Positions 21,518 through 44,112 of a stretch of DNA of 45,298 nucleotides are shown one piece after another. Source of the DNA: Sphingomonadales bacterium. Its GTDB lineage: Bacteria > Pseudomonadota > Alphaproteobacteria > Sphingomonadales > Sphingomonadaceae. A model generated the notes under the pieces. The model was not told where the DNA came from, did not search any database, and saw only the letters and a list, made by a program, of their open reading frames with translations. Each line of letters starts with the position of its first letter. Position 1 is the stretch's first letter. The DNA lies in NCBI GenBank assembly GCA_018971065.1, contig JAGWVC010000020.1:1-45298 (forward strand), in the 5' to 3' direction. The translations under genes were made by a program, and so were the position numbers.

Positions 21518-21546
21518 CGTGATTCTCCCAAAAGCGAATTTACGTT

Positions 21547-23627: not shown

Positions 23628-23692
23628 GTCACTCCCCAGGCTTCTTGCGAATGGTGCGCCCTTTGCCCCGGCCTCGGGCACGCTACCATCGC

Positions 23693-23716
23693 ATAGTATC
23701 GATGCCGTGGTATCGA
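23693..23716 (-). promoter_or_regulatory. Candidate operator/promoter element TCGAT-N8-ATCGA next to ACTAT (site 1)
   Basis: On the plus strand it reads ATAGT-A-TCGAT-N8-ATCGA; on the minus strand the dyad runs straight into TACTAT, a usable -10, 66 bases before the HisD-like start. The same arrangement recurs at 28662 before the MFS gene. It also lies in the leader of the divergent FAH operon, 72 bases from its start, so one protein could control both. Confidence 0.5.
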
Positions 23717-23787
23717 TCGAATGCCGTTGTTACACGGCCGGGCGCGGCTTAGCGGTTTCGACCACACGATCTTGGGAGAATTGGGCC

Positions 23788-29422: not shown

Positions 29423-31027
29423 TCACCGGTCTTCGAGAATCAGTTCGGCCGCGCGTTGCGCCACCGCCATTGCCGGTCCGTTGGTATTGCCGGAAACCGG
29501 CGCCGGGATGATCGAGCAATCGACGACGCGCAATTGCTCCACCCCATGCACCCGCGCCCGGGCATCCACCACCGACGCGGCGGGGTCGGTGCCCATCGTG
29601 CAGGTGCCGGTGCCATGCAGCCCGGCTTCGACCATCCGGGCCAGTTCGGGCAGGATCGCATCGTCGCCCTGCACGCCGTTGCCCGGCATCCGCTCGGCAC
29701 CGATGTAGGGCGCCAGGACGGGGGCGGCGGCAATCCGGCGAAACAGTTGGAACAGCTCCAGCGCCTTCTGCCGATCGTAGGGATCGGTCCAGATGCCGGC
29801 ATCCACCAGCGGCGCCACGCGGTAATCGGGCGATGTCACCGTCACCGTCCCCCGGCTGCGCGGCCGCAGGTGGTATCCCGAAAAGGTCAGCCCCGGCTTG
29901 TCGGTGATCGGGCTGCCCGGGCGCTCGGCCATCTCGTTGATCGTGCGCATCGCGAACGGCGCGGCGGCCACCTGGAAATCGGGCCAGTCCGGCCGGCCTT
30001 CGCTGGAAATCAGCCCGGTCAGCGGCAGCCCCACGCGCGCCAGCGGCCCGGTCCGGGTCAGGAAATAGCGCAAGGCATTGCGATAAAGCCGCCAGCCGAC
30101 GAATTCGCGGTTGGTGCCGGGGTGGTTGTGCAGGTCGAACGAGACGCCGAACTTCTGGTGATCGGCCAGGTTCCGCCCCACCGCGGGCAATTCGCGCACC
30201 ACGGCAATGCCCAGCCGTGCCAGCGCCTCGCCCGGGCCGATGCCCGACAGTTGCAGCATCTGCGGCGAACCGTAGACCCCGGTGGCCAGGATCACCTCGC
30301 TGGCGGCGGTCGCGGTTTCCTCGACGCCGTCGTGTTCCATAACCACGCCGGTCGCCCGGCCCTCGCGGATCAGCACGCGTTTCACCGCGGCGTGAGTCAG
30401 GATGCGCAGGTTCGCCCGGCCCCGGATCGGCTTCACGAACGCCTCGTAGCTCGATTCGCGCTGGCCCGCGCGGTTGACCGTATACTGTGTTCGCCCCGCC
30501 CCGGTGATCCCCGGCGCGGTGATGTCGCTGACCCACGGCATCCCGTTGGCGCCGAACGCCTGCACCAGCGCATCGAACACCGGCGACGTGTGCGTGGACG
30601 CGGTAATCTCCAGTTCGCCGCGCGTGCCCCGGCCCGGATGCGCGCCGGCGTCGCGGTAGTTCTCGAAGGTGGCAAGGCACCGCGCGATCTCGTACCAGCC
30701 CCAGCCGGGCAGGTTCCATCCGTCGTAGTCGGCCGGCATCCCGGTCAGATACCAGGTGCCGTTGATCGCCGAAGACCCGCCCAGGCCCCGGCCATAGGCG
30801 TGCATTTCCTTGCGCATTCCGGGCTGTTGCACCGAAGGATAGGCCCGGAAATACGCCGGGTTCCCCATGATCTTCACGAAGCCGCCGGCCATCCTGATGA
30901 ACGGGTGCTGGTTGTCGCCGCCATCCTCGACCAGCAGCACACGATGGCGCGGATCGGCGCTCAACCGGTTGGCCAGCACGCACCCGGCCGAACCGGCGCC
31001 GACGATGATGGTGTCGTATTCGTGCAT
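29423..31027 (-). CDS. GMC-family FAD oxidoreductase, candidate glycoside 3-oxidase
   Basis: 534 residues from the ATG at 31027; a GTG at 31036 is an alternative and neither has a strong ribosome site. FAD fold VGAGSAGCVLANRLS near the N-terminus, the GMC signature YGRGLGGSSAINGTWYLTG, and a second signature around EVILATGVYGSPQMLQLSGIG. The active-site region is LHGTGTCTMGTDP with the catalytic His, then SGNTNGPAMAVAQ. It oxidises an alcohol and passes electrons to O2 or a carrier. It is divergent from a C-glycoside deglycosidase pair, and CarA, the C-glycoside 3-oxidase of the carminate pathway, is a GMC enzyme; 3-oxidation of a glycoside is therefore the favoured role. A choline-dehydrogenase-like alcohol oxidase is the alternative. 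Confidence 0.85.
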   Translation of the reverse strand: MHEYDTIIVGAGSAGCVLANRLSADPRHRVLLVEDGGDNQHPFIRMAGGFVKIMGNPAYFRAYPSVQQPGMRKEMHAYGRGLGGSSAINGTWYLTGMPADYDGWNLPGWGWYEIARCLATFENYRDAGAHPGRGTRGELEITASTHTSPVFDALVQAFGANGMPWVSDITAPGITGAGRTQYTVNRAGQRESSYEAFVKPIRGRANLRILTHAAVKRVLIREGRATGVVMEHDGVEETATAASEVILATGVYGSPQMLQLSGIGPGEALARLGIAVVRELPAVGRNLADHQKFGVSFDLHNHPGTNREFVGWRLYRNALRYFLTRTGPLARVGLPLTGLISSEGRPDWPDFQVAAAPFAMRTINEMAERPGSPITDKPGLTFSGYHLRPRSRGTVTVTSPDYRVAPLVDAGIWTDPYDRQKALELFQLFRRIAAAPVLAPYIGAERMPGNGVQGDDAILPELARMVEAGLHGTGTCTMGTDPAASVVDARARVHGVEQLRVVDCSIIPAPVSGNTNGPAMAVAQRAAELILEDR

Positions 31028-31045
31028 GGCTTTCACCGTCAGGAC

Positions 31046-31061
31046 TGGAATAAATGTTCTG
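31046..31061. promoter_or_regulatory. GAA-N6-TTC operator candidate, site A (TGGAA-N6-TTCTG)
   Basis: Lies 19-34 bases upstream of the GMC start, where it could block transcription or translation start. It matches sites at 31103, 34749 and 40230. TetR (32686) is the nearest candidate regulator. Confidence 0.45.
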
Positions 31062-31077
31062 GTTTCTTGAGCACGGG

Positions 31078-31096
31078 GCTTGACCGCTTGTCAAGC
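31078..31096. promoter_or_regulatory. Palindromic divergent -35 block GCTTGAC-N5-GTCAAGC
   Basis: Perfect 7-bp arms give TTGACC reading right (31080-31085) and TTGACA reading left (31094-31089). The rightward one pairs with TAGAAC (31103-31108) at a 17-base spacer, a good sigma-70 promoter for the DUF6379 operon; no good -10 is seen leftward. A related block is at 40261-40288. Confidence 0.5.
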
Positions 31097-31102
31097 GACA
31101 AT

Positions 31103-31118
31103 TAGAACCATATTTCTA
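31103..31118. promoter_or_regulatory. GAA-N6-TTC operator candidate, site B (TAGAA-N6-TTCTA)
   Basis: The dyad extends to ATTAGAA-N6-TTCTAAT (31101-31120). It covers the -10 and likely start point of the DUF6379 promoter, a classic repressor position. Confidence 0.55.
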
Positions 31119-31138
31119 ATTAACAGCGGGAGAGCGAA

Positions 31139-31519
31139 ATGCTGCCGGTCGAACGGATCATCGGGGAAGAAGGGCTCAGCGCCGTGGATGGCGGGTTGAA
31201 ACTGGCGATGCGGCTGCCGTGGTATCGCTCGCTGCCGTTTCCCACGGTCGAAGTCGGCGGGCTCGAACTCGATGGCGCGCCGGTTGACCTGTCCGCCGCC
31301 CGCATCGAATACGACGGCGCCTCGTGGCCGCTTTCCGAAAACGGCGAGCAGGTCGATGCGTTCTGGTTCGTGCGTGACAGCGCCTTCCTGGTCGTGCCCG
31401 GCGTGGGTATCGCCGCTGGCGAAAGCCATCGGGCGGCGCTGACCCTGTTCGTCAGCCCGCCCTACATCCCCGGCATGAAGCGGATGAACCAGCAGACCGA
31501 AGCCCTGATCGCGGCCTGA
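31139..31519 (+). CDS. C-glycoside deglycosidase beta subunit (DUF6379), copy 1
   Basis: 126 residues; GGGAGAG upstream of the ATG. Recognised as the DUF6379 fold by comparison with copy 2 and the family pattern: LAMRLPWYRSLPFPTVEVGGLELDGAPVD, DAFWFVRDSAFLVVPG, AGESHRAALTLFVSPPYIPG (compare GRLPYYRGLGLSMVEDIAVTVDG and PGEHRIEFAVRNRVSYLPF in copy 2). In DgpBC, CarBC and related enzymes this small beta-sandwich subunit pairs with a TIM-barrel subunit to cleave the C-C bond between sugar and aglycone of 3-oxo-C-glycosides. The TIM-barrel gene follows 12 bases later. Copy 1 is more divergent at the middle, lacking the W-x-F-G-E block. Confidence 0.83.
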   Translation: MLPVERIIGEEGLSAVDGGLKLAMRLPWYRSLPFPTVEVGGLELDGAPVDLSAARIEYDGASWPLSENGEQVDAFWFVRDSAFLVVPGVGIAAGESHRAALTLFVSPPYIPGMKRMNQQTEALIAA

Positions 31520-31531
31520 GAGGAACCAGAC

Positions 31532-32539
31532 ATGACCAGCACCATGACCACGACCAGTGGCCCGCAGATCGGCGTCACCCTCTATTCGTTCACCAACGAA
31601 TGGCTGACCCGTCAGTTCGACCTTGGCGGCCTGATGCGCGAAGTGGCGAAGCGCGAACTGGGTCCCAACATCGAGATCATCGGCTTCCAGAACTTCAAGG
31701 AATTCCCCGACGTTTCCGATCGCTTCGCCGATGAATTCAAGGCCCTGATCGCCGAAACCGGGCTCAACCCGGTCTCCTGCGCGATCAACTCGGACCGCTT
31801 CCTCAAGCCCGGCCAGCAACCGATCGACGATGCCGCGCTGGTCGAATACCATCGGCGCCAGCTTCGTTCGGCGAAGAAGTGCGGGTTCGAGCTGGTCCGT
31901 TTCCAGTTCGCGCTGCCCGCTCACCTGCTTCCCGAAATCGCGCCTTACGCCGAGGAGATCGGCGTGCGCATGGGCGTGGAAGTCCACGCGCCGATGTATG
32001 CGGACCACCCGGCGGTGCGGGAATATGCCGAGATGTACGACCGGATCGGCTCGCCGTATCTTGGCTGGATTCCCGATTTCAGCGGCACCGCCTCGCGGAT
32101 ACCGCCCAGCATGCTCGACGCCGCCCGTGCCGCCGGCGCCCGGGAAAGCCTGATCACGATGCTTCAGGAGGTGTGGCTCGAGGACGGCCCCGGCTACGTC
32201 AAGGCCGGCAAGCTGCGCGAAGCCGCGCTCAAGGACGGTCACGCCCCGGCGCACATCCAGGCGGCCAGCCTGGCGTTCTTCATCCTTGCCAACAACGATC
32301 CGAAAAGCTGGGCAAAGCTGGTCGATCGCACCATCCACATCCACGGCAAGTTCTATGGCGTCGGCGAGGATCTGGTCGAGGAGGCGATCGACTATGACAC
32401 CATCCTGCCGCTGTTTCGCGACGGTGGCTTCACCGGCACGCTGGTCAGCGAATGGGAAGGCCATGCCTACGACACGCGCGACGCGTTCGAACAGGTGCGC
32501 CGCCACCAGGCGATGTGCCGGCGGATACTGGCAAGCTAG
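31532..32539 (+). CDS. C-glycoside deglycosidase alpha subunit (sugar isomerase-like TIM barrel), copy 1
   Basis: 335 residues, AGAGGAACC upstream. A xylose-isomerase-like TIM barrel with the metal set at strand ends: E150 and H152 (GVEVHAP), D182 (WIPDFSG), H271 (IHIHGKFYG) and E307 (LVSEWEGHAY). In the C-glycoside deglycosidases CarC and DgpC, a Mn-binding barrel of this type forms the catalytic subunit with a DUF6379 partner. Pairing with DUF6379 here is the main reason for this call over a plain sugar phosphate isomerase. Its divergent neighbour is a GMC oxidase. It is only distantly similar to copy 2, so the two pairs probably differ in aglycone or sugar. Confidence 0.83.
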   Translation: MTSTMTTTSGPQIGVTLYSFTNEWLTRQFDLGGLMREVAKRELGPNIEIIGFQNFKEFPDVSDRFADEFKALIAETGLNPVSCAINSDRFLKPGQQPIDDAALVEYHRRQLRSAKKCGFELVRFQFALPAHLLPEIAPYAEEIGVRMGVEVHAPMYADHPAVREYAEMYDRIGSPYLGWIPDFSGTASRIPPSMLDAARAAGARESLITMLQEVWLEDGPGYVKAGKLREAALKDGHAPAHIQAASLAFFILANNDPKSWAKLVDRTIHIHGKFYGVGEDLVEEAIDYDTILPLFRDGGFTGTLVSEWEGHAYDTRDAFEQVRRHQAMCRRILAS

Positions 32540-32576
32540 GCCGGATTCAGGGCCGGGGCAGGGACAGGCCCGCTCC

Positions 32577-32617
32577 AGAGCATGATGATATCGGATTGAC
32601 CAATGTCATCATGCTCT
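32577..32617. terminator. Perfect 12-bp hairpin AGAGCATGATGA / TCATCATGCTCT between convergent genes
   Basis: Arms at 32577-32588 and 32606-32617, 17-base loop. It begins 37 bases after the deglycosidase alpha stop and precedes the convergent TetR stop. It could end transcription from both sides. No U-run follows directly, so it may equally be a dispersed repeat of the alphaproteobacterial AGAGCATGAT type. Confidence 0.5.
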
Positions 32618-32630
32618 AATCGTTGTTGTC

Positions 32631-32677
32631 GTGCGACTTTCTGGCAAAAACCGGTTCCCGCTTTTTTGTCATCGCAC
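32631..32677. repeat. Dispersed hairpin repeat, copy 2 (CAAAAACCGGTTCCCGCTTTTT core)
   Basis: Outer arms GTGCGA/TCGCAC, inner arms CAAAAA (32645-32650) and TTTTTG within 32662-32668. The core matches copy 1 at 20682-20703 at 20 of 22 bases. It sits directly after the 12-bp hairpin, between convergent genes. Confidence 0.7.
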
Positions 32678-32685
32678 TCCAGCCG

Positions 32686-33342
32686 CTATTTCGCCTTCAG
32701 ATAGGCCAGGCACATCCGGCCCAGCTCGCGCTTCAGGCCCTGCCAGTCGTAGTTGGTCACCGATTCCGCCGACGAGCCGAGGCTCAGTTCGCGGGCCAGC
32801 GTGGCGAACACGATGTAGTAGGCCGAGCTGGCCCGGTTCTCGAAATCGGCGCCGCCGAATTCGCGGGCATAGCGCAGCATCGCCGCCGTCGCCTGTTCCA
32901 CCGCGTGCAGCGCGGCGCGCTTGCCGGGCTCGGAAACCAGCGGGTCGGATTCTGCGCGCATCATCGCCAGCCGCAGCAGCGGCGCGTGGATGGTCAGCAC
33001 GTCGGCATAAGCCTGCACATAGCGCGGCACGAACTCGTCGAGCGTGGCGCATTCCGCCGAAAGCGCATCGAGCATTGCATTCTCTGATTCGGCCAGCGCG
33101 CGCATCGCGTCGGCCAGCACCGCGCGCACCAGGTTGTCCTTGCTTTCGAAGCGCAGGTAGATCGATCCGATTGAGACGTTGCCGCGCTTGCTGACTTCCT
33201 GCAACGTGAAATCCTCGCTGCTGCGCTCCAGCATCAGTTCGCGCGCGGCGGCAAGCATCCGTTCCAGCGAGGCCTTGGACCGGCCCTGCTGCGGCGTGCG
33301 GCTGACGGCTTCCACGGTGAAGTCTGCGGGTTCGTCTGCCAT
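32686..33342 (-). CDS. TetR-family transcriptional regulator
   Basis: 218 residues from the ATG at 33342; a longer frame to 33444 is not supported. N-terminal HTH: RSKASLERMLAAARELMLERSSEDFTLQEVSKRGNVSIGSIYLRFESKDNLVRAVL (about residues 20-75), the typical G-S-I-Y-x-R-F end. The C-terminal ligand domain is all-helical. It lies between the two deglycosidase loci and is the only DNA-binding protein in the glycoside region, so it is the best candidate for the GAA-N6-TTC sites at the GMC/DUF6379, MFS/Rieske and second deglycosidase promoters. A glycoside, aglycone or acyl-CoA effector is possible. Confidence 0.88.
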   Translation of the reverse strand: MADEPADFTVEAVSRTPQQGRSKASLERMLAAARELMLERSSEDFTLQEVSKRGNVSIGSIYLRFESKDNLVRAVLADAMRALAESENAMLDALSAECATLDEFVPRYVQAYADVLTIHAPLLRLAMMRAESDPLVSEPGKRAALHAVEQATAAMLRYAREFGGADFENRASSAYYIVFATLARELSLGSSAESVTNYDWQGLKRELGRMCLAYLKAK

Positions 33343-33436
33343 GTATCGCCCTTGGATCGGAATTGAAGAACTAGAATCCGGCCCGCCCCATAGCGGGTTC
33401 GCGCCCTGCCTCCAATGCGATTGTCGGCAATATCGC

Positions 33437-34639
33437 TCAGGCAATCGCCGGGGCTTGCGCGCGGCGCAGGGTTCCCAGCGCGAACACCGCCGCCCCGGCC
33501 AGCGCCGTCAGCCCCGCCGCCAGGAACGCGCCCTGCATCGTTCCCGCCCGGCCGGCCACGCCGCCGACGATGATCGGCGAGATCGCCTGTCCCAGGAAGA
33601 ACATGCTGGTCCACACGCCCATGCCGCGCCCGCGGTGCCGGAACGAGAACTTCGATTGCGCCCAGGCGATCAGCGCCGGCACCGTCATGCCCGCGCCGGT
33701 CTGCTGCACGATCAGCGCCGCCTGCATACCGGGCAGGGTGCGCGCCAGCCCGATCCCCGCCAGGCCGATGCCCAGCAGGCCCAGCAGCACCGCGATCTGC
33801 ACGCCGTTCGCGTAGCGCGAAACCAGCCGGAACACCACCGAGCCCGCCATGATGAACAGCGCCGGGATCGCGGTGGCCTTGCTGACCGCCATCGGATCGC
33901 TCACGCCGATCTCGCGCCAGGCGATGCTGCCGTTGACGATGAACACATAGTAGAGGACCGAGGCGAACAGCGTCAGCGCGCCCACCGCGCAGGCCGCGCC
34001 CCACGGAAACGGCGTGCCGTCATCGTCGGCCATCGCCGTCGCCGGCTCGGGCCGCTTCGGCTCGAACAGGTTGAAATACATCGAAACGAACACCGGAAAG
34101 GCGATCAGGTAGACAAGGAACCCGCCGTTCCAGCGCAGGGCCGCTACCCCGGCCACCAGGAAGAACACCAGCGGCTGGAAGAACGGCCCGACCAACCCCT
34201 GTAGCATCAGCCAGTTGCGCCGGCCGGTGTCGTCCCAGTAGTCGGCGATCAGCGTGTTGACGATGGTCAGGATGCCCGCCTCGCAAACCCCCAGCAGGAT
34301 GCGGCTGGCGAAGATGGTGTCGAGGTTTTCCAGGAAGAACGGCGCCGCGCCGACGATGCCATAGAAGAACGTGCAGACCAGCAACAGCCGTCGCCGCCCG
34401 AACCGATCGACCAGGAACCCCGCGAACGGCGCCAGCACGGCGATCGCATAGCCCGGCGCGGTCACCATCGCCGGTACGCGGATCGCGGCGTCGGGCACGT
34501 CGTGGAAATGGCCGATGATCGACGCCACCACCGGAAACATGGCGATGATGGCGAACACCGGCAGGAACGCGGCGACGATCATCGTGAAGCCTTGCGGCTT
34601 GAGCGTGAGCGACGACAGGAAATTGCGCAGGAACGACAT
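33437..34639 (-). CDS. MFS transporter
   Basis: 400 residues; GGAGGGGAG lies upstream of the ATG at 34639, and the longer frame to 34702 enters the AT-rich control region. Twelve membrane segments are plausible. Loop signature LVDRFGRRRLLLVCTFFYG after helix 2. A charged central loop (NLFEPKRPEPATAMADDDG) divides the halves. It resembles the transporter at 27372 in length and layout (IADYWDDTGRRNW versus IGDYYDGAARDRW), so they are paralogs. Likely exports or imports a glycoside or its aglycone product. The TetR gene follows on the same strand. Confidence 0.88.
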   Translation of the reverse strand: MSFLRNFLSSLTLKPQGFTMIVAAFLPVFAIIAMFPVVASIIGHFHDVPDAAIRVPAMVTAPGYAIAVLAPFAGFLVDRFGRRRLLLVCTFFYGIVGAAPFFLENLDTIFASRILLGVCEAGILTIVNTLIADYWDDTGRRNWLMLQGLVGPFFQPLVFFLVAGVAALRWNGGFLVYLIAFPVFVSMYFNLFEPKRPEPATAMADDDGTPFPWGAACAVGALTLFASVLYYVFIVNGSIAWREIGVSDPMAVSKATAIPALFIMAGSVVFRLVSRYANGVQIAVLLGLLGIGLAGIGLARTLPGMQAALIVQQTGAGMTVPALIAWAQSKFSFRHRGRGMGVWTSMFFLGQAISPIIVGGVAGRAGTMQGAFLAAGLTALAGAAVFALGTLRRAQAPAIA

Positions 34640-34943
34640 GCAGGCTCCCCTCCGGTGGGCCGGTACGCGGCTTGTGCCGCTCTTGTGATGCATCCGTAAC
34701 AAAATAGAATATCAATTACAAACAAAACCTGCGTGTGGCGCGGTTGACAGGAACCTGCATTCGCATTTATTCCATTCGCACAGCCTGGTGGCCGGAGCGA
34801 TCCGGCCTGGGGCGACGCGGCGGGCGTTCCCGTGCGTCGGCTGCAGGCCCCACAGCGTTTCGCAAGGCGTCGTCCTTGCGGAGGGTGCGGGGAATGCAGC
34901 GATAGTCGGTCATTCCTTGCGCCTGCGAGACAGGAGATGGCCG
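34640..34943. other. 304-base divergent control region between MFS and Rieske genes
   Basis: No gene is seen. The left third is AT-rich with TAGAAT (34705-34710). TTGACA (34744-34749) with TATTCC (34768-34773) at an 18-base spacer is a possible promoter for the Rieske gene, and a GAA-N6-TTC site overlaps its -35. The right part is GC-rich leader DNA that is open in the Rieske frame back to 34788 but shows no protein-like features. Confidence 0.6.
34749..34764. promoter_or_regulatory. GAA-N6-TTC operator candidate, site D (AGGAA-N6-TTCGC)
   Basis: Overlaps the last base of a TTGACA -35 element in the MFS/Rieske divergent region. It is closest to site C in its GGAAC...TTCG form. Confidence 0.4.
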
Positions 34944-35981
34944 ATGTCGTTAGCAATCCGCCCCGAATTCATCCGGAACGCCTGGTATCTGGCCGCCTGG
35001 GCCGAGGAACTGCCCGAAGGCGGCTTCCTGGCCCGGCGACTGCTTGACCAGCCGTGGCTGCTGTGGCGGGAGGGCGATGGCGGTGTGGCGATGATTGCCG
35101 ATCGCTGCCCGCACCGTTTCGTGCCGCTGAGTCGGGGCCGGTTTGCCGCCGATGAATCAGGACGGGGCCGGATCGCCTGCGGCTATCACGGCCTGACCTT
35201 CGACGGGCGCGGCGCCTGCGTGCACAACCCGTTCGGCGCGGTGCCCGAAGCCGCGCGGGTGGATGCGCCGCCGGTGGTGGAGGCGCACGGCGGGGTGTGG
35301 TTCTGGCCGGGCGATGCCGCGCTGGCCGATCCGCGCCAGGTGCCCGATTTCGCGTTCATCGACGTCGGTGAGCCGACCGAGCGCGCGGTTTACGTAATGG
35401 ACGCACCGCACGAGCTGATCGTCGATAACCTGATGGACCTAAGCCACGCCGAATTCCTGCACGTGGAAAGCTTCGGCACCAACGGCTCGCTGATGAGCCA
35501 CGGCAAACAGGCGGTAAAAGCGGACGAAAGTGGCGCCATATGGAACAACTGGAATGTGACTGACGCCCCGCCGCCGGGCTGGGCCGCGCCATTGCTGGGC
35601 GAAGGGCAGACCGTGGACCAGTGGCTGCACATCCGCTGGGACGCGCCCGCCAGCATGGCGCTGTTCATCGGTATGAGGCGCAGCGGTACAGGCGAAGCGG
35701 TGGTGCCGCCAATGGCCAACCCGCATATCCTGACACCCGAAACCGCCACCAGCACGCATTACTTCTTCACCCACAAGCCCGGTGCCGAGGAAGCGGCGCA
35801 GGCGCGGCGCGTGTTCCTGGAAGAAGACGAGCCGATGATCCGCGCGCAGCAGGAGGCGATGAACGGTGAGGATTTCTGGGACTTGCGCCCGCTGATCCTG
35901 CCCAGCGATGCCGGCGCCATTCGCGTGCGACGGCGGCGTATGCAGTTGCTGCGGGCGGAAACCTCAACCGCGCAGGCGTAG
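34944..35981 (+). CDS. Rieske non-haem iron oxygenase, VanA-like O-demethylase type
   Basis: 345 residues from the ATG at 34944 with AGGAG nearby. The N-terminal Rieske domain binds 2Fe-2S through C55, H57 (CPHRF), C79 and H82 (CGYHG). The catalytic domain has the mononuclear iron site N162-x2-D165-x2-H168-x4-H173 in NLMDLSHAEFLH. Length and spacing match the vanillate O-demethylase (VanA) group and not the larger dioxygenase alpha subunits. It may demethylate a methoxy-aromatic aglycone, releasing formaldehyde. No VanB-type reductase gene is in the window. Its 3' end overlaps the convergent nucleoside hydrolase by 18 bases. Confidence 0.88.
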   Translation: MSLAIRPEFIRNAWYLAAWAEELPEGGFLARRLLDQPWLLWREGDGGVAMIADRCPHRFVPLSRGRFAADESGRGRIACGYHGLTFDGRGACVHNPFGAVPEAARVDAPPVVEAHGGVWFWPGDAALADPRQVPDFAFIDVGEPTERAVYVMDAPHELIVDNLMDLSHAEFLHVESFGTNGSLMSHGKQAVKADESGAIWNNWNVTDAPPPGWAAPLLGEGQTVDQWLHIRWDAPASMALFIGMRRSGTGEAVVPPMANPHILTPETATSTHYFFTHKPGAEEAAQARRVFLEEDEPMIRAQQEAMNGEDFWDLRPLILPSDAGAIRVRRRRMQLLRAETSTAQA

Positions 35982-36908
35982 CTTGGCGAGGAAGTCGGCC
36001 CAGGCCAATCGCGCGTCGAGCTGCTCGAAGACGCGCACGTTGCGGCCCGGGATTTCCGCGCCGTAGCGGCCTTCGGCAAGGATGCGGCGCGCGGGGCGAT
36101 CGACGGCGCGGCTGCTTTCGGCCGAGACAGCGGTCAGCAGCGCCAGCGGACTGTCACCCAGCGGCCAGGCCCCGCCCACGTCAATGAACGCGGGCGGGTG
36201 GGTGAAGTGGTCATATAGCCAGCGACCGAGCGGGGATATGGCACGCATCTCGGTGGCCATTTCGGCGACCGAGAACTGCATCTGGCGATAGGCGGGTTGC
36301 GGCACCTGCCAGATCGGGACCGTGCTCTGTTCGATCACGGCGCGCGCGGCGGTCTCGTCGGTGGCGAGGTTGTATTCCCAGCCGCCATCGGGATAGCCAC
36401 CACCGCCGATCCACACCACCGTCATTCGCGCGGCGATGGCGGGCTGGAGGCGCAGCGCGGCGGCGACGTTGGTGAGCGGGCCGCCGCAGGTGAGGATCAG
36501 CGGCAGAGGATCGTCGCGCATTGCTTCAGCGACGATGCCGCGCGCGGCGGGGGAGGGGGCGAGGCTGAAATCTTCCGTGCCGGCGGCGACGGGGATGGGC
36601 GTGCCGCGAACGGTGCGGCGCAGGCATTCGCGGGCGATGTCGGCGGCGATCGCGGCGCTGTGCCCGGCCAGCGCGGGCTCGACGAACCTGGCGTTAAGCG
36701 CCGAGGTGGTGATGAGCGTGGTGCGGGTTTTGGGCGACAGCAACTGATGCACCAGCGCCACCAGCCCGTCGGGATCGCCGGAAAAGTCATTGTCGATGAT
36801 GACGCGGGCCGAAGCGCGCTGGGGGATCATCGGCGCGGCGCGGGCGATCGGGGCGAGCAGCGCACCAGCGGCGAGCGAACCGGCGAACTGGCGGCGGGAG
36901 AGAGGCAT
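35964..36908 (-). CDS. Exported nucleoside hydrolase-like protein
   Basis: 314 residues. A twin-arginine-type leader (SRRQFAGSLAAGALLAPIARA) suggests export. The inosine-uridine hydrolase core follows: VIIDNDFSGDPDGLVALVHQL with the calcium-binding Asp cluster, although the second Asp of the usual DD pair is Pro here; then LTCGGPLTNVAAAL and WEYNLATDETAARAV. The family cleaves N-ribosides. In this context a different glycosidic bond may be the target. It is the last gene of the deglycosidase copy-2 operon, 14 bases after DUF1080. Confidence 0.85.
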   Translation of the reverse strand: MPLSRRQFAGSLAAGALLAPIARAAPMIPQRASARVIIDNDFSGDPDGLVALVHQLLSPKTRTTLITTSALNARFVEPALAGHSAAIAADIARECLRRTVRGTPIPVAAGTEDFSLAPSPAARGIVAEAMRDDPLPLILTCGGPLTNVAAALRLQPAIAARMTVVWIGGGGYPDGGWEYNLATDETAARAVIEQSTVPIWQVPQPAYRQMQFSVAEMATEMRAISPLGRWLYDHFTHPPAFIDVGGAWPLGDSPLALLTAVSAESSRAVDRPARRILAEGRYGAEIPGRNVRVFEQLDARLAWADFLAKLRLRG

Positions 36909-36922
36909 CGGCAGCTCCGGGT

Positions 36923-37741
36923 TCAGCCTCCGGCGCGGATGCGGGCGATTTCCCCGGCATCGAGCGGGCGGATCATCACGTTGCGAAAGGACACTTCCGC
37001 GGCTTCAAATTCCAGCGCGATGCGGCCCTTGCGCAAGGGCGCGCCGGCGCGGTCCTGCAAGCCGAACAGCGTGTTGACGATGCGGCCGTTGACGAGGTGC
37101 GCGGCCTGGTCGTCGAACGCGAAGAGATCGAGCGTGTTCCAGCCGTCGAGTCGCTCGAACTGGCCGGCGTGGCGCAGCCATTGCCGGGCGATGCCGCCGG
37201 CAGTGATGGCGGGCGGATAATCGCGCGGCAGGGCGGGGACCCAGTTTGGCCACAGCGGCGTGCCGCCGAGCAGCGGTCCTTGCAGCGCCCGCGTGTTGAT
37301 GGTGATGGCATCGCCCACGTCGGTTTCCTCGACCTGGAATTCGATGCCGTCAGGGAACAGCCGATCGCGATCGGGGGCCAGGTGATAGAGCACGCCCGAA
37401 TTGCGGCGTTGCATGTCACGCGGGGCGAAGCGGCGCGATCCCCAGCGGCATTCGAGCCGTAGGTGGTAATCGGCGTGTTCGCTGGCGGTGGCGAGATGGC
37501 CGAAGGTGGCGCTGTCCGGTCCGGTGTAGCGGGGCCCGAGCAAGTGCAGCGCGCCGTGTTCGATCGCCACGACGTGGTGCGGATCGCCCGCCGGGGCGCC
37601 TTGCTGGAACATCGTCCAGCCGGCGAGGCTGCGGCCATCGAACAGGCGGCGCCATGCCGGTGCCGCGCGTGGGCGCCGGGCTTGTCCGAATGTTGTCGCA
37701 GAAGCGGCGAGCATGGCGAGGACGGGGCGGCGCGCGATCAT
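36923..37741 (-). CDS. DUF1080 (3-keto-disaccharide hydrolase family) protein
   Basis: 272 residues; the ATG at 37741 overlaps the MBL gene stop (ATGA). The leader MIARRPVLAMLAASATTFGQA suggests export. The concanavalin-like DUF1080 domain is clear: WRRLFDGRSLAGWTMF, DYHLRLECRWGS, NSGVLYHL, IEFQVEETDVGD, and WNTLDLFAF, ending with VSFRNVMIRPL. This family has been linked to hydrolysis of 3-keto-glycosides. Its place directly in a deglycosidase operon fits a step on 3-oxo-O-glycosides parallel to C-C cleavage. A carbohydrate-binding role without hydrolysis cannot be excluded. Confidence 0.87.
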   Translation of the reverse strand: MIARRPVLAMLAASATTFGQARRPRAAPAWRRLFDGRSLAGWTMFQQGAPAGDPHHVVAIEHGALHLLGPRYTGPDSATFGHLATASEHADYHLRLECRWGSRRFAPRDMQRRNSGVLYHLAPDRDRLFPDGIEFQVEETDVGDAITINTRALQGPLLGGTPLWPNWVPALPRDYPPAITAGGIARQWLRHAGQFERLDGWNTLDLFAFDDQAAHLVNGRIVNTLFGLQDRAGAPLRKGRIALEFEAAEVSFRNVMIRPLDAGEIARIRAGG

Positions 37742-38718
37742 CGAAACGAATCCAGGTCGCGTGCCATGTGGACGGGGCCGTGGTAGAAGCGGCGTACGCC
37801 GGCGATCAGCACGGCCGGGTGCCTGAGCTGTTCGGGCACCGGCACGAAATGGGTGAGCACGACGGACTTGACGCCGGCGGCCTGGGCGATGCGGCCGAGG
37901 TTTTCGGCGGTGAGGTGGTTGACTTTCATGCCGTCGGCGACGCTTTTGCGGGCGGCGGCGGGAACATCGGAAATGGTGCGTGCGAGCCGTTCGGCGATGC
38001 CGTCGATATCCACGATCTCGCTGACCAGCACGTCGGCGCCTTGCGCCAGCTTTTGCAGGCCGGGCGAGGGGCCGGTGTCGCCCGAATAGACGAAGCTGCG
38101 GCCGCCGGCTTCGATGCGGAACGCCACCGCGCGGGGGCGTTCGGGCAGCGGCACCGATGGCGCGGTCTGGTAGTGATCGACGGCGATGGCGGTGACGGTG
38201 ATGTGTTCGTCGCGGAACACCGGAACCGGCTCGGCAGCGTCGGCGGGGAGGTCGTGCGCGGTGACGGTGTCGGCAATCGCAGGCCTGGCAGGACCGGCGG
38301 TGGGATACGAGGCGAGCGCGGTGGGCGCATTGGCGGCGCACAGCCCGGCGACAAGCGTGGCGGTGCCGGGCGGCCCATAGACCGGCAGGTGGCCGGCACC
38401 GAACAGCCAGTGCGTCATCAACACCGGGCCGAGATCGGCGTTATGGTCGAGGTGGTGGTGCGACAGAAAAACCACGCGGATCGCGCGTTCGGGAATGCCG
38501 GCGCGGGCAAGCTGGCGTTGCACGTCGTTGCCGCAGTCGAACAGGTAGACCGCGTCGGCCACTATCAGGGCATTGGCGATCTGGGCGCGTTCGCGCTGGA
38601 CCTGGGGGCCGCCGCTGGTGCCGAGCGTGATCCAGCGGGGGCCGGCAGGAGCCGCACTCCCCAGCCGGCTGGCGAGCGCCAGGGCGGGGAGCGCGGCGAG
38701 GAGGCTGCGTCGCTTCAC
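37738..38718 (-). CDS. Exported MBL-fold metallohydrolase
   Basis: 326 residues from a GTG at 38718 overlapping the DUF6379 stop (GTGA). The N-terminus (MKRRSLLAALPALALASRLGSAA) is a likely signal peptide. Metal motif H87-x-H89-x-D91-H92 in SHHHLDHN, a further His in VDHYQT, the Asp in VYSGDTGP, and His in VVLTHFVP complete a binuclear site. It resembles the RNase Z/arylsulfatase-type branch (GTSGGPQ near the start). It may hydrolyse an ester, lactone or sulfate on the glycoside. Overlaps on both sides show it is part of the operon. Confidence 0.86.
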   Translation of the reverse strand: MKRRSLLAALPALALASRLGSAAPAGPRWITLGTSGGPQVQRERAQIANALIVADAVYLFDCGNDVQRQLARAGIPERAIRVVFLSHHHLDHNADLGPVLMTHWLFGAGHLPVYGPPGTATLVAGLCAANAPTALASYPTAGPARPAIADTVTAHDLPADAAEPVPVFRDEHITVTAIAVDHYQTAPSVPLPERPRAVAFRIEAGGRSFVYSGDTGPSPGLQKLAQGADVLVSEIVDIDGIAERLARTISDVPAAARKSVADGMKVNHLTAENLGRIAQAAGVKSVVLTHFVPVPEQLRHPAVLIAGVRRFYHGPVHMARDLDSFR

Positions 38719-39089
38719 GCGGCGAGCGCGAGTTGCTTGGCATCCTTGGTGGTGGGCACGAACGGCAGGTAGGAAACGCGGTTGCGCACCGCGAATTCGA
38801 TCCGGTGCTCGCCCGGTGCAAGGCCGCCGTTAAGTGCGGTTATCAGCGCCTTTTCGCCGAAGTTCCAGCGGTCGTCATAGACGGTTTCCATTTCGTCGAG
38901 CGTGTAGGTCTTGCCGCGCACCGAGAAGCGGATGTCCGCGCGCGGGATCGCCACGCCATCGACGGTGACGGCGATGTCCTCCACCATCGAGAGGCCAAGG
39001 CCGCGATAGTAGGGCAGGCGGCCGAGGAAGGCGAACCCGCCCTCCACCGACTGGAGGCTGCCTTCGACGATCATCTTGTTGTCCATCAT
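38715..39089 (-). CDS. C-glycoside deglycosidase beta subunit (DUF6379), copy 2
   Basis: 124 residues, ATG at 39089 preceded by GGAG. It shows the full family pattern: GGFAFLGRLPYYRGLGLSMVEDIAVTVDG, RADIRFSVRGKTYTLDEMET, DDRWNFGEKALITALNGGLAPGEHRIEFAVRNRVSYLPF. This is closer to the family consensus than copy 1. The TIM-barrel partner is encoded 12 bases upstream in the same operon. Role: supports cleavage of the sugar-aglycone C-C bond after 3-oxidation. The 3-oxidase could be the GMC protein at 29423 or one encoded outside the window. Confidence 0.87.
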   Translation of the reverse strand: MMDNKMIVEGSLQSVEGGFAFLGRLPYYRGLGLSMVEDIAVTVDGVAIPRADIRFSVRGKTYTLDEMETVYDDRWNFGEKALITALNGGLAPGEHRIEFAVRNRVSYLPFVPTTKDAKQLALAA

Positions 39090-39101
39090 GGCAGGTGCTC
39101 C

Positions 39102-40124
39102 TTAGGCCGCGACAGGGGTCTTGAGGGTGGGGACTTCGGTTTCGCCGAGGTAGCCGGCCAGCATCACCTGCTGGCGGCGGACCTGTTCGACCGAATCCGG
39201 CTCCTCGGCGTCCTCGATCCAGCGGTTGCCTTCGTATTCCGAGCAGATGTAGCCCTCGTAGCCGCCCTGCTGGAGCACGCGCACGATCTCGTCATAGGGG
39301 ATCGACGGTTCCACGCAGTCCTCGGTCATCTCGTAGAACTTGCCGTGGATGTTGCGGATCATCGGCATGTAGTCGAGCATCCGCTTCGGCTCGAACGCGG
39401 CGTTGTGACGCATCGCCTCGGCCATGCCGATGGCGGGGCCGGTGCCGCCCATCTGCTGGACTTCGAGGATCACGTATTCCGACAGCACGCGTTCGTCGTA
39501 GGCCTTCTCGATGTAGTCGGCGATCTTGTCCGAAACGCCCAGGCGGCGGAACTTGGCCGACCACACGCGCGGGTAATGATGCAGGAACATGCCCATGTCG
39601 GGCAGAAAGCCCAGCGCCGGCGAGCCAGACTTCGTGAACGCCTCGGCCAGGCGGATGATCCACGGATGGTCGAAGTGCAGCGGCGCATGAACTTCGGTGA
39701 GCAGCATGATGCCCTTTTCCTCGGCATAAGGCGCGGCGGCCACCAGCACTTCGGGGGCGATCGACACCAGCGAGCGGATGTAGGGCATGCCCAGCCGCGC
39801 GCCGAAGTCGATGTCGTTCCTGACGCTGGCAACCTGCTCCTCGAACGGCATCGGCCGGTCCTTGTAGCGCTTGTAGTCGAGCATGTAGTCATGGCTGACC
39901 GGCACGCAGTCGTACTTCTTGATCAGGCGGTGCCAGTTGGCGATGTCGGCATCGGCCACGCCCACTTCGGGCCAGCCCCAGAAGGTCTGCTCGCCGATGA
40001 TCTCGATGCCGCGCGCGCCCAGTTCGGCGGAGACGCGGATGCAGTCTTCCAGGTCCATTTTGCCCTGGAAAGTCTCGTTCTGGTAGGAATAGAGGCTGAC
40101 GCCACGTTTGATCTTACTGGTCAT
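39102..40124 (-). CDS. C-glycoside deglycosidase alpha subunit (sugar isomerase-like TIM barrel), copy 2
   Basis: 340 residues; GGGAG lies upstream of the ATG at 40124. TIM barrel beginning GVSLYSYQNETFQGKMDLED, with metal candidates E144 and H146 (LLTEVHAP), D176 (FLPDMGM), H260 (RNIHGKFYE) and E296 (CSEYEGNRW). The GVSLYSYQ...IEIIGEQ and HGKFYEM blocks match deglycosidase alpha subunits (CarC/DgpC type). It heads a five-gene operon with its beta subunit, MBL hydrolase, DUF1080 and nucleoside hydrolase. A plain sugar-phosphate isomerase role is less likely because of the DUF6379 partner. Confidence 0.86.
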   Translation of the reverse strand: MTSKIKRGVSLYSYQNETFQGKMDLEDCIRVSAELGARGIEIIGEQTFWGWPEVGVADADIANWHRLIKKYDCVPVSHDYMLDYKRYKDRPMPFEEQVASVRNDIDFGARLGMPYIRSLVSIAPEVLVAAAPYAEEKGIMLLTEVHAPLHFDHPWIIRLAEAFTKSGSPALGFLPDMGMFLHHYPRVWSAKFRRLGVSDKIADYIEKAYDERVLSEYVILEVQQMGGTGPAIGMAEAMRHNAAFEPKRMLDYMPMIRNIHGKFYEMTEDCVEPSIPYDEIVRVLQQGGYEGYICSEYEGNRWIEDAEEPDSVEQVRRQQVMLAGYLGETEVPTLKTPVAA

Positions 40125-40229
40125 GCTGCGCTCCCTTGGGTTCGCGTGGAGCGGGTAGCGAGCGGCAGCGCGCCAGCGCGCGAACCGGTCTCTCTCCCCT
40201 GGGGCCGGAGGTGCGGAACCTTGCCCTAT

Positions 40230-40245
40230 TGGAACGAATATTCGT
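40230..40245. promoter_or_regulatory. GAA-N6-TTC operator candidate, site C (TGGAA-N6-TTCGT)
   Basis: Includes the perfect 12-bp palindrome ACGAATATTCGT (40234-40245). It covers the -10 region (AATATT on the minus strand, 18 bases from TTGACG) of the copy-2 operon, 106 bases before its start. Confidence 0.5.
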
Positions 40246-40260
40246 ATAATTGCCGGTGCC

Positions 40261-40355: not shown

Positions 40356-40772
40356 ATGATCGGAAGGCGATTGCTTGTCGCGCTGGCGGGTCTGCCGGTG
40401 GCGGCGTTCTTCGGTTTTGTCGGGTGGTACAAGGCATTTGCGCCACTGGCGGAACTGCAGGCGCATCACGCCTGGACCGCGCATGTGCCCGGGTGGATCG
40501 GACGGCCGATCGGCTGGAGCGAGCTGGCCGGCGCGGCGGGTCTGGTGGCCGGGCTGTTTCCCGCGGCCTGGCGCTGGACCCGGATTGCGGCGCTGTGGCT
40601 GGCGGCCACGCAGGTTCCCTCATCGGTGATCCACTGGCTGCACGGGGAAACCGGTGAACTGCCCAAGAACCTCACCCTGATCGCGGTGCTGTGCCTGGTC
40701 GCCTGCCTTGCCCGCCGGCCGAAACCTGTTCCCCCCGCCCCATTTTCCCTCGCAAAGGAGACCCCGGCATGA
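40356..40772 (+). CDS. DoxX-like four-helix membrane protein
   Basis: 138 residues; GCGGGA lies a little upstream of the ATG. Four hydrophobic segments are seen, at about residues 5-25 (LLVALAGLPVAAFFGFVGWYK), 53-70, 73-92 and 103-118. The family pattern GFVGWYKAFAP, then GWSELAGAAGLVAGLF, supports DoxX-like. Function unknown; related proteins associate with oxidoreductases or respiratory electron transfer. Coupled by ATGA to the exported SnoaL-like gene. Confidence 0.8.
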   Translation: MIGRRLLVALAGLPVAAFFGFVGWYKAFAPLAELQAHHAWTAHVPGWIGRPIGWSELAGAAGLVAGLFPAAWRWTRIAALWLAATQVPSSVIHWLHGETGELPKNLTLIAVLCLVACLARRPKPVPPAPFSLAKETPA

Positions 40773-41596
40773 TTGTTCGCCTTCCCTGCCTGGCCGCGCT
40801 GGTCGCGGTGTTGACGCCGCTTCCCGCGCTGGCCGCCCCCGCTGACGAGATTTCCGCGCTGAAGGCCGAAGTCGCCGGCTTGCGCCACCTGGCCGAAGCC
40901 GGCCGCGATCGCGGCGAGGTGGAGAACCTGTTCTCGCGCTACATGTACCTGCACAACGCCTTCCACGATCCCGAGATCATCCCGCTGTGGGCGAAGCGGG
41001 GGACGCCGGGCATCCGGGCGCAGTATTCGAACAATGGCGTCTATACATCGTGGGACAGCATCATGGCCTACCACGCGCAGCGCCCCAATCCGAAGGGCAA
41101 GCTGACCTTCCACTATGTGACCACGCCGCTGATCGAGGTGGCGGGCGACGGCCAGACCGCCAAGGGCCTGTGGGTGATGTCGGGCGTCGAATCGGGCCTG
41201 ACCGCCCCCGAAGCCGCCGCCCATGCCCCCGATTTCATGTACGAGAAGGGCGTGCTGGTCGACGGCAAGCGGGTGTGGATGCACACCGTTCTGGTGAAAT
41301 ACGGGGTCGATTTCATCCGGCAGGACGGCCAGTGGAAGATCTGGCATTTCCACTGCTTCGAGATTGCCCGTTCACCGTTCGGCCTGGGCTGGATTCCCTT
41401 CGCCGCGCAATCGCAGAACAACCCGTTCAGCGACGACCTGATGTACTTCGGCGAGGACGGCAAGCCGGTGCTGATGCCGAAACCCGACGGCCCGGTGACG
41501 ATGCGCAACAATCCCTATCGCACCGACACCGGGCAGGTGCTGGATGCGCCGCCGCCGGTTCCCTATCGAACCATCGGCGAGACGTTCGAGTATTGA
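40769..41596 (+). CDS. Exported SnoaL/NTF2-like protein
   Basis: 275 residues from the ATG at 40769 with AAAGGAG upstream. Signal peptide MIVRLPCLAALVAVLTPLPALA (cleavage near residue 22), a short coiled segment DEISALKAEVAGLRHLAEAGRDRGEVENLFSRYMYLHNAF, and a SnoaL-like cone with a His-rich WKIWHFHCFEIARSPFG end. The C-terminal 60 residues are an extension rich in Pro and Asn. Family members act as cyclases, isomerases or dehydratases on polycyclic aromatics; here it would work in the periplasm. Substrate unknown. The carboxylesterase gene follows in the same unit. Confidence 0.82.
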   Translation: MIVRLPCLAALVAVLTPLPALAAPADEISALKAEVAGLRHLAEAGRDRGEVENLFSRYMYLHNAFHDPEIIPLWAKRGTPGIRAQYSNNGVYTSWDSIMAYHAQRPNPKGKLTFHYVTTPLIEVAGDGQTAKGLWVMSGVESGLTAPEAAAHAPDFMYEKGVLVDGKRVWMHTVLVKYGVDFIRQDGQWKIWHFHCFEIARSPFGLGWIPFAAQSQNNPFSDDLMYFGEDGKPVLMPKPDGPVTMRNNPYRTDTGQVLDAPPPVPYRTIGETFEY

Positions 41597-41606
41597 GGAG
41601 GCGACG

Positions 41607-43167: not shown

Positions 43168-44112
43168 CTATTTGGTCGGGTAATCCTTCGCTTCTTCCAG
43201 CACCGGCAGGGTCACCGCGCCGGTGGCCGCCCATTCGCTGCCGCGCAGCAGCAGCGTCTGCAGTGGCTGGAAGTGCAGCGACACCTCGTCGTGCCCCAGC
43301 GTGATCGCGAACACGCGGCCCTTGCCGTAATCGGCGGTCCACACCTGCGGATGGTCGCCGTCCATGCCCGGCATCGCCTTCAGCTTGTCAGGTGTGTAGG
43401 CGGCCACCGGATATTTCGGGCCGGTCAGTTTCGGATCGTAGGCGGCGGCGGGATCGTGCGCGGTGGCCAGCACGTGGATCTTCGCCTCCGGGTCGCGGGC
43501 CATCGCGGTGTACATGTCGTCGTTGTAAGTCCACACGAACTCGCGCATTCCGGCGGTGATCGGGTGCGTGCGGTCGATGATGTGGACCGGAAACGCGCCC
43601 GGCGGCGCGCGGCGGCTGGTTCCCGGCTCCATCACCGCGCCCACCAGCCGCTTGTATTCGGGAATGTCGCGTCCCCAGGTGAACGACGAGTGGTAGGCGA
43701 CGAGGCCGCCGCCCTCGCGCACGTACTGGTACAGCGCCGCGAACGCCGTGGGTTGCCAGAGGTGCTGCACCGGATCGGCGTAATTCCAGCGGCTGGAATA
43801 GTTGAGCAACACCACGTCGTAGCCCTTGAGGGTCGCCAGATCGCCGTGGTCGAAATCCTCGGTCACCCGCACGTCGAAGCGCCTGCTGTCGGTCAGCAGC
43901 GTGCGCAGCGCGTTGTTCACCCCGGTCCAGTCGTGTTCGTAGGAGTTCTGCCCCGAGATGATCAGCACCTTCAGCCGGGCTTCCTTCGGATTGACCGGGA
44001 TGGTCACGCGCTGGACGGTTTCGGGCGGGCGATAGTCGATGGTGACGATCACCTGCGCGGCGGCGGGCGCGGCAAGGCCGGCCAGCAGGACGGCAACCAG
44101 GGTCTTGTTCAT
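43168..44112 (-). CDS. Exported ThuA-domain protein
   Basis: 314 residues from the ATG at 44112, which overlaps the upstream symporter stop (ATGA). Signal peptide MNKTLVAVLLAGLAAPAAAQ. The ThuA glutamine-amidotransferase-like fold is visible: LKVLIISGQNSYEHDWTGVNNALRTLL, YDVVLLNYSSRWNY, EGGGLVAYHSSF, DRTHPITAGM and the late GKGRVFAITLGHDEVS. ThuA proteins belong to trehalose and 3-keto-sugar utilisation in rhizobia; their reaction is still poorly defined. It fits the 3-keto-glycoside theme of the region. Confidence 0.87.
   Translation of the reverse strand: MNKTLVAVLLAGLAAPAAAQVIVTIDYRPPETVQRVTIPVNPKEARLKVLIISGQNSYEHDWTGVNNALRTLLTDSRRFDVRVTEDFDHGDLATLKGYDVVLLNYSSRWNYADPVQHLWQPTAFAALYQYVREGGGLVAYHSSFTWGRDIPEYKRLVGAVMEPGTSRRAPPGAFPVHIIDRTHPITAGMREFVWTYNDDMYTAMARDPEAKIHVLATAHDPAAAYDPKLTGPKYPVAAYTPDKLKAMPGMDGDHPQVWTADYGKGRVFAITLGHDEVSLHFQPLQTLLLRGSEWAATGAVTLPVLEEAKDYPTK

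Follow-up and report, generated by a model that had tools for sequence, protein, structure and literature searches.

What does a bacterium gain from two enzymes of the same unusual kind encoded a few genes apart? The question is raised by a 45,298-nucleotide stretch from a Sphingomonadales bacterium (GenBank assembly GCA_018971065.1, contig JAGWVC010000020.1, positions 1 to 45,298; hereafter the window, to which coordinates refer unless a locus is named), which encodes two pairs of predicted C-glycoside deglycosidase (CGD) subunits. C-glycosides resist ordinary glycosidases, the C-C bond between their sugar and aromatic parts is very stable, and, to our knowledge, soil C-glycoside pathways are known from few bacteria. 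We reason that the window probably constitutes a single aryl-C-glycoside catabolic island, whose two predicted CGD heterodimers, belonging to different ancient clades, act in one pathway under the control of a TetR-family regulator. Each pair comprises a small beta subunit and a TIM-barrel alpha subunit:

31139-31519, plus strand: beta1, CGD beta subunit of pair 1 (DUF6379/CGDB; PF19906, 36.9 bits; AlphaFold2 model and Foldseek)
31532-32539, plus strand: alpha1, CGD alpha subunit of pair 1 (TIM barrel; PDB 7dnm_A, structural model, seven active-site residues)
38715-39089, minus strand: beta2, CGD beta subunit of pair 2 (PF19906, 118.8 bits; PDB 8qvc_B)
39102-40124, minus strand: alpha2, CGD alpha subunit of pair 2 (PDB 8qvc_A; seven active-site residues kept)

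The initial annotation, made from the sequence letters, had described two DUF6379-type proteins, each 12 bases from a barrel, and had assigned them to the CarBC/DgpBC type of enzyme; the open reading frame (ORF) coordinates confirm the spacing in both pairs, and the family assignment was upheld by profile, residue, tree and fold analyses. Both small proteins pass the cut-off (27.6 bits) of PF19906 (CGDB, 'C-glycoside deglycosidase beta subunit'), with E values of 3.5e-9 for beta1 and 1.3e-34 for beta2, and both barrels pass that of the general barrel family PF01261; none of the four matched an NCBIfam model at E <= 0.01. The closest PDB chains of pair 1 (7dnm_A for alpha1, E 1.9e-44; 7dnm_B for beta1, E 2.6e-8) belong to AgCGD2 (AgCarB2C2, PDB 7DNM/7DNN) of Arthrobacter globiformis, and those of pair 2 (8qvc_A for alpha2, E 2.4e-99; 8qvc_B for beta2, E 9.7e-25) to an entry named, from its PDB title, as the Deinococcus aerius CGD (DaCGD; related entries 8QVD and 8UMC), which is thus the nearest solved relative of pair 2. 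For all parts of the window the nearest relatives are found in Novosphingobium and other Sphingomonadales.

In AgCGD2 the metal ligands are E147, D179, H269, K271 and E305, and the catalytic residues H149 and E307 (PMC8563793; articles are cited throughout from the portions available to us). At positions 147, 149, 179, 269, 271, 305 and 307 both alpha1 and alpha2 keep E, H, D, H, K, E and E, so the metal set initially noticed in both barrels (E-H, D, H, E) is real and larger than proposed, and alpha1 has the same metal and catalytic set as AgCGD2. In the beta subunit of PuCGE, Tyr39 is specifically important for the cleavage of C-glycosides rather than O-glycosides (PMC10628242), and its counterpart is a tyrosine in all 117 aligned beta subunits, beta1 and beta2 included; the surrounding motif is typically WYRS in pair-1-type (as in AgCGD2) and YYRG in pair-2-type proteins. 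AlphaFold2 models, which cover alpha1 and beta1 as single chains, were consistent with these assignments. The alpha1 model (predicted local distance difference test, pLDDT, 92.9) had 7dnm_A as its top Foldseek match (template modelling score, TM, 0.92); among the 50 matches listed, ranks 1-16 were all CGD chains, and other barrels appeared from rank 17 with query TM <= 0.65. For beta1 (pLDDT 87.6) ranks 1-17 were all CGD chains, the next match having an E value of 9.8e-3. PuCGD (DgpBC of gut strain PUE, PDB 7BVR) has the same fold as alpha1/beta1, with the catalytic histidine and beta Tyr39 in common.

Two departures from the conserved active site were observed among related barrels. Gln replaces the metal ligand His269 in 10 of 50 pair-2-type barrels (L010, L011, L032, L041, L044, L051, L060, L070, L071 and L073, where L numbers denote loci; L070 and L071 belong to one genome), the other six residues being kept, which possibly reflects a change of metal or function. 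Five CGD-like barrels (L060:17432-18460, L068:1280-2308, L070:5275-6333, L071:5272-6330, L073:5323-6351) keep the metal ligands and have catalytic His149 replaced by Gln and Glu307 by Gly; four of the five lack an adjoining beta gene, and these proteins may be other lyases or inactive copies.

The pairs are only distantly alike (alpha1 and alpha2 are 32% identical, beta1 and beta2 29%), and they run in opposite gene orders (beta-alpha on the plus strand for pair 1, alpha-beta on the minus strand for pair 2), which argues against a simple tandem copy. The alpha-subunit tree had 63 rows (47 of 125 alpha ORFs after redundancy filtering, 8 rows from later loci, 6 PDB chains and 2 outgroup barrels) and was built without AgCGD1, MiCGD, MtCGD and PurBC. 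Within it, alpha1 and alpha2 both nest among the CGDs, and the two isomerase-like outgroup barrels stand separate from them (support 100/100). The alpha1 clade consists of 11 rows, all proteobacterial (100/97), and contains no PDB row, while the alpha2 clade has 8 rows, including 8QVC (98/94). AgCGD2, the top sequence and fold match of alpha1, nevertheless lies outside the alpha1 clade, and PuCGD forms a deep branch separate from both window pairs. Gene order is clustered on the tree, though not fixed (6 changes for each order). Given the low identities, the opposite orders and the different clades, a recent tandem duplication was ruled out.

We scanned genome contigs with alpha1, obtaining 62 loci (G numbers below denote genomes). 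Of 36 genomes with close pair-1 barrels (62-82% identity, L012-L047), 35 encode a pair-2-clade barrel somewhere, which is 76-88% identical to alpha2 in 27 of them and belongs only to a 42-46% identical subtype in the other 8; none was found in G028, the genome behind the metagenome-assembled locus L039. A further set of 22 genomes (leaving out L063, L070, L071 and L073, second loci of genomes already counted) had such a barrel at >= 41% identity in 17 cases, or in 16 of 21 once G352, whose own match was of the pair-2 type, is removed; it was not found in G332, G336, G339, G345 and G350. A sample of 298 genomes from the family of G001 contained 6 with alpha1, all 6 also with a pair-2-clade barrel, 10 with the pair-2 type only and 282 without a CGD match at E 1e-20 (Fisher p 1.6e-7 for co-occurrence without the centre genome); the 13 remaining barrels (11 in the 10 pair-2-only genomes, 2 in G130/G162) were much closer matches to alpha2 or its subtype than to alpha1. 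A second family sample, of 299 genomes centred on Ideonella, contained 3 with alpha1, each of which had a pair-2-clade barrel about 1 kb away.

This association is often physical, as both types lie within the fetched stretches (some of which end at contig ends) at 20 of the 36 close loci and 15 of the 22 others (L048-L069). Tight alpha2-beta2-beta1-alpha1 runs occur in Burkholderiales (L050, L051, L052, L054) and Actinomycetota (L059, L061, L063, L065, L066, L069; L061 and L063 from one genome), and the two types stand side by side at the Chloroflexota loci L055 and L057.

The regulatory elements point in the same direction, and involve the following features:

29423-31036, minus strand: GMC-family oxidoreductase dependent on flavin adenine dinucleotide (FAD), candidate glycoside C3 oxidase/dehydrogenase (PF00732/PF05199)
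31100-31121: palindromic operator AATTAGAA-N6-TTCTAATT between the GMC gene and beta1 (motif scan, conservation)
32686-33342, minus strand: TetR-family regulator, proposed repressor of the CGD regulon (PF00440; lies between the two pairs)
40228-40247: weaker operator copy upstream of alpha2 (3 of 14 mismatches over a 14-base core)

The palindrome at 31100-31121 is the only window site with <=3 mismatches to AATTAGAA-N6-TTCTAATT (none in 100 shuffles), and it recurs in all 41 GMC-beta1 intergenic regions (window included) with 14-16 of its 16 bases kept. With the 14-base core, the site before alpha2 ranks second in the window, none with <=3 mismatches arising in 20 shuffles, and sites at this threshold (<=3/14, applied to the upstream counts that follow) precede alpha2 in 24 of 29 regions (sphingomonads 24/25, Burkholderiales 0/4); the remaining sphingomonad region (L040) has one with 4 mismatches. 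They also precede the TIMy gene in 12 of 15 regions (in several relatives TIMy has GPH and ThuA genes as neighbours), MFS genes in 3 of 13 and Rieske genes in 2 of 6, as against GPH genes in 1 of 14, esterase genes in 0 of 3 and ThuA genes in 0 of 1; operator control directly before GPH or the esterase was rejected on these counts. We stress that upstream regions are AT-rich, which favours the motif, and that per-region shuffles correct for this only roughly. A whole-genome search of 23 of the 36 genomes returned 40 sites with <=1 mismatch, 23 of them at pair 1, 9 at other places in the CGD locus and 8 outside it (2 of these, in G002 and G012, directly before the TetR gene), while a reversed control pattern gave 0 sites in the same genomes. 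Co-conservation and a common operator thus favour two parts of one pathway over two independent systems.

Beside the operator, an inverted repeat GCTTGAC-N5-GTCAAGC (31078-31096) is conserved across the 41 aligned intergenic regions and perhaps represents overlapping -35 elements of two divergent promoters. Weaker operator-like sites with 4/14 mismatches (1.3 expected per shuffle) lie at 21532-21551, upstream of a cyclase gene, and at 34703-34722, before the MFS gene; they could tie aglycone genes to the regulon.

The TetR gene follows the CGDs closely. At E 1e-40 it was found in 32 of 33 alpha1 genomes (33 of the 36 were searched), and in the 298-genome sample it was present in 15 of 16 CGD-bearing and none of 282 CGD-less genomes (Fisher p 2e-24; 4e-23 without the centre genome). 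A smaller comparison gave 9 of 10 pair-2-only genomes against 0 of 20 CGD-less ones, and in those nine the TetR gene lies on the contig of the pair-2-type barrel, ~1-15 kb away. Operator-like sites stand upstream of TetR in 8 of 9 regions from pair-2-only genomes and in 11 of 16 chosen regions of alpha1 genomes, the latter dividing into 11/14 where TetR is >3 kb from pair 1 and 0/2 where it is near. The gene at 32686-33342 is likely the regulator of the CGD regulon, whose operator its product would contact. The joint occurrence of the pairs, the operator and the TetR distribution indicate that the two pairs are probably components of a single pathway under TetR control, together with the GMC, sugar and aromatic-ring genes.

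The place of the GMC protein depends on its genomic context. Its gene adjoins beta1 and is oriented divergently from it in 41 of the 44 loci whose beta1 reaches >= 45% identity (a divergent GMC was not seen at L018, which is cut, L044 and L054). Its best NCBIfam and PDB matches are of the choline dehydrogenase/alcohol oxidase types, and comparisons by profile, with PDB chains and with the D. aetherius GMC (CarA and PurA standing outside the comparison) showed no kinship with the POx/CGOx-type branch of C-glycoside 3-oxidases (the type of CarA, PurA and the D. aerius GMC). Since the protein is choline-dehydrogenase-like, the role proposed for it rests on synteny and on the operator in its own intergenic region. 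The remaining genes considered in the pathway and around it are:

33437-34702, minus strand: MFS transporter (PF07690; adjoins TetR in many relatives)
34944-35981, plus strand: Rieske/VanA-type oxygenase, possible O-demethylase (PF00355, PF19112, searched from 34926; start taken as the first Met before the Rieske domain)
35964-36908, minus strand: nucleoside-hydrolase-family protein, at the end of the probable pair-2 operon (PF01156; 14 bases from the DUF1080 stop)
36923-37741, minus strand: 3-keto-disaccharide hydrolase (DUF1080), probable pair-2 operon (PF06439, 102.1 bits, searched from 37690, inside the gene)
37738-38718, minus strand: metallo-beta-lactamase-fold (MBL) hydrolase (PF12706; 4-base overlap with beta2)
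40356-40772, plus strand: DoxX-like membrane protein (PF13564; equivalent position in several relatives)
41544-43160, plus strand: carboxylesterase (PF00135; 66% to a pNL2 gene in a matching neighbourhood)
43168-44043, minus strand: ThuA-domain protein (PF06283 in ORF 43168-44745; start estimated from homologues)
44109-45284, minus strand: GPH-family sugar:cation symporter, near the window end (PF13347)
15835-16953, plus strand: FAD monooxygenase, in the adjoining aromatic cluster (PF01494; 44% to a CGD-adjoining gene of Novosphingobium P6W)
19492-20649, minus strand: alpha/beta hydrolase (FrsA/POP-like; 67-68% to CGD-locus genes in Sphingobium and Croceicoccus, 57% in Deinococcus aetherius)
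20717-21517, minus strand: putative cyclase (PF04199; 68% to a Sphingobium CGD locus, 38% to D. aetherius)
23788-24729 of ORF 23491-24732, plus strand: FAH/2-keto-4-pentenoate hydratase-like protein (57% to Sphingobium and Croceicoccus CGD-locus genes)

The proposed sequence of events, for which the chemistry is taken from work on other proteins (PMC8563793, PMC10628242, PMC13273386), would begin with oxidation of the sugar at C3, for which the GMC flavoenzyme encoded divergently from pair 1 is the likeliest catalyst. The 3-keto-C-glycoside would then bind at the alpha/beta interface, where a metal held by the E, D, H, K and E ligands would polarise the ketone, the catalytic His would remove the C2 proton and the beta-subunit Tyr would activate the phenolic aglycone, so that the C-C bond is lost through beta-elimination, yielding the aglycone and a 2-hydroxy-3-keto-glycal. 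The DUF1080 protein and other sugar genes would hydrate and process the sugar, and the aglycone would be degraded by enzymes encoded nearby (FAD monooxygenase, dioxygenase-like, hydratase and hydrolase). The TetR repressor, acting on AATTAGAA-N6-TTCTAATT, would govern the divergent GMC/pair-1 promoters as well as pair 2, and the two pairs would probably act on differently placed or differently shaped C-glycosides. Computation supports the family assignment, the active-site residues, the fold, the co-conservation, the operator and the TetR distribution; every reaction, the contact of TetR with the operator and the split of substrates are inferred. The genes alpha2, beta2, MBL-fold hydrolase, DUF1080 (sharing 4 bases with the MBL gene, given its Met start at 37741 in the ORF translation) and nucleoside-hydrolase-family protein form a probable operon. 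The aromatic genes at 15.8-24.7 kb match CGD-adjoining genes elsewhere, which supports an aromatic aglycone.

Several observations weigh against this reading. Among Microbacteriaceae 19 of 299 genomes had a CGD-type match, only 2 of which (G347, G351) reached >= 41% to alpha2, and the pair-2 clade was found in neither of two Rhizobiaceae with pair-1-type barrels. The pair-2 operator of the window itself is weak (3/14 mismatches), and in pair-2-only genomes a site precedes the barrel in 5 of 11 regions (5/7 in close alpha2 relatives, 0/4 in the subtype). Upstream of TetR in the fetched loci, 0 of 22 regions had a site with <=3 mismatches, which suggests that any TetR autoregulation is not general. 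The GMC protein scored 32 bits against the pyranose oxidase model TIGR02462 (cut-off 545), and the D. aetherius GMC gave no match to it at E 1e-5. Moreover, PuCGE cleaves O- as well as C-glycosides (PMC10628242).

How the two pairs would share the work can be construed in several ways. C6-type glycosides may be the domain of one pair and C8-type or non-flavonoid glycosides that of the other, which would allow full use of mixtures or of 6,8-di-C-glycosides; we give this a near-even chance, and it is one form of the one-pathway explanation, not its opposite. Published CGDs mostly prefer C6- or C8-glycosides, and AgCGD1 and AgCGD2 show a split specificity within one genome (PMC8563793), while PurBC acts on C8 only (PMC12724307). 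Positions 248/249 (AgCGD2 numbering) are Phe/Ile in alpha1 and Arg/His in alpha2 and in DaCGD (8QVC), AgCGD2 itself having N248/M249, and these differences suggest that the aglycone pockets of alpha1 and alpha2 probably differ. On the other hand, specificity is not sorted simply by clade, as AgCGD2 and PuCGD, both C8-selective, stand apart in the tree. For this reason, and because barrels 59% identical to AgCGD2 lie near AgCGD2-like ones in several genomes, the idea that pair 1 serves C8- and pair 2 C6-glycosides was dropped. The initial suggestion of two enzymes with different substrates is plausible as far as the pockets are concerned, whereas the co-conservation and common operator suggest that the pairs are parts of one pathway.

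A bolder version of the one-pathway explanation, which we advance tentatively and lean against as a whole, holds that pairs from these old, separate clades form a conserved module that occurs in Pseudomonadota, Actinomycetota and Chloroflexota and is under TetR control in sphingomonads. Pair 1 would then represent an uncharacterised CGD type of proteobacteria, would receive its substrate from a GMC oxidase branch new to C-glycosides, and would do a job that DaCGD-type enzymes cannot, e.g. on the second sugar of di-C-glycosides.

That one or both pairs act mainly on 3-keto-O-glycosides is unlikely: besides the dual activity of PuCGE, it could draw on the beta-glucosidase or other glycoside hydrolase genes that adjoin related pairs, but the retained beta Tyr is the residue specifically important for C-glycosides (PMC10628242), and the operon already has a DUF1080 protein (Pfam name 3-keto-disaccharide hydrolase). 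Somewhat less probable still is a sequential division of labour, in which elimination falls to one pair, while the other hydrates the 2-hydroxy-3-keto-glycal or handles another intermediate. It would account for pair 1 never occurring without pair 2 in the 298-genome sample, yet the pair-2 type lacks pair 1 in 10 of the 16 CGD-bearing genomes there, both pairs keep the Tyr required for C-glycoside cleavage, and DUF1080 and isomerase-like barrels are available for hydration. That the barrels are ordinary sugar-phosphate isomerases or epimerases beside unrelated small proteins, as their general PF01261 assignment would permit, is contradicted by the residues, tree and Foldseek search, which group them with CGDs, and by the PF19906 matches placing the small proteins within DUF6379, and we regard it as ruled out for practical purposes.

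Among known systems, DaCGD comes closest to pair 2. In D. aetherius, whose alpha subunit is 97.6% identical to the aligned 8QVC chain, the gene order is likewise alpha-beta, and aglycone genes related to those of the window lie nearby; within the plasmid record searched there is one such barrel, against two pairs in the window. In the DgpABC system the oxidation falls to DgpA, dependent on nicotinamide adenine dinucleotide (PMC12724307), whereas the window has a GMC gene beside pair 1. Several CGDs in one genome are already known, as A. globiformis has AgCGD1 and AgCGD2 (PMC8563793) and Catenibacillus decagia six dgpBC clusters, for which the authors suggest different enzyme sets for different substrates (PMC11170127); the available portions of these articles describe no common operator or two-clade module. 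PurABC homologues in Pseudomonadota are mentioned (PMC12724307), and a reverse reaction of PuCGE has been reported (PMC13273386). Among the papers listed in the literature searches, which did not extend to the D. aerius CGD paper, none dealt with the CGD locus of a sphingomonad or with the TetR and operator found there, and none described this two-clade regulon.

If the proposal holds, a regulated pathway in which two cleaving enzymes complement each other exists in Novosphingobium and related bacteria, among them N. aromaticivorans DSM 12444, which is amenable to genetics, and the reason why bacteria keep two CGDs becomes directly testable. The operator could then serve in an inducible biosensor, and a new CGD subfamily and oxidase branch would become available for deglycosylation or, in reverse, for C-glycoside synthesis.

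On plasmid pNL2 of N. aromaticivorans one stretch holds the GMC gene, the two pairs and the genes for DUF1080, esterase, ThuA and GPH proteins; in strain DSM 12444 pair 1 corresponds to SARO_RS18755/18760 and pair 2 to SARO_RS18730/18735. The ThuA-domain protein is 87% identical to its pNL2 counterpart from residue 235 of ORF 43168-44745, and the GPH match begins at PF13347 profile position 35, so this gene may start beyond the window. A ParD/ParE-type pair separates the esterase gene from the ThuA gene in the CGD locus of pNL2 (L001:27758-28333), and is also present in ES2-1. Aromatic genes were present within the fetched 10 kb of close loci only at L016, L021, L026, L040, L042 and L044. Pfam scans of 10 further ORFs gave no match for 5. 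A histidinol-dehydrogenase-family protein (PF00815; 22296-23681, minus strand) lies within the aromatic cluster, and the first 9 kb of the window encode a formate dehydrogenase alpha subunit (61-2520; NCBIfam Fdh-alpha 923 bits, cut-off 666) and a chorismate-binding enzyme (4638-5876) followed by a TonB-dependent receptor (6101-8533), the latter two possibly forming a siderophore locus.

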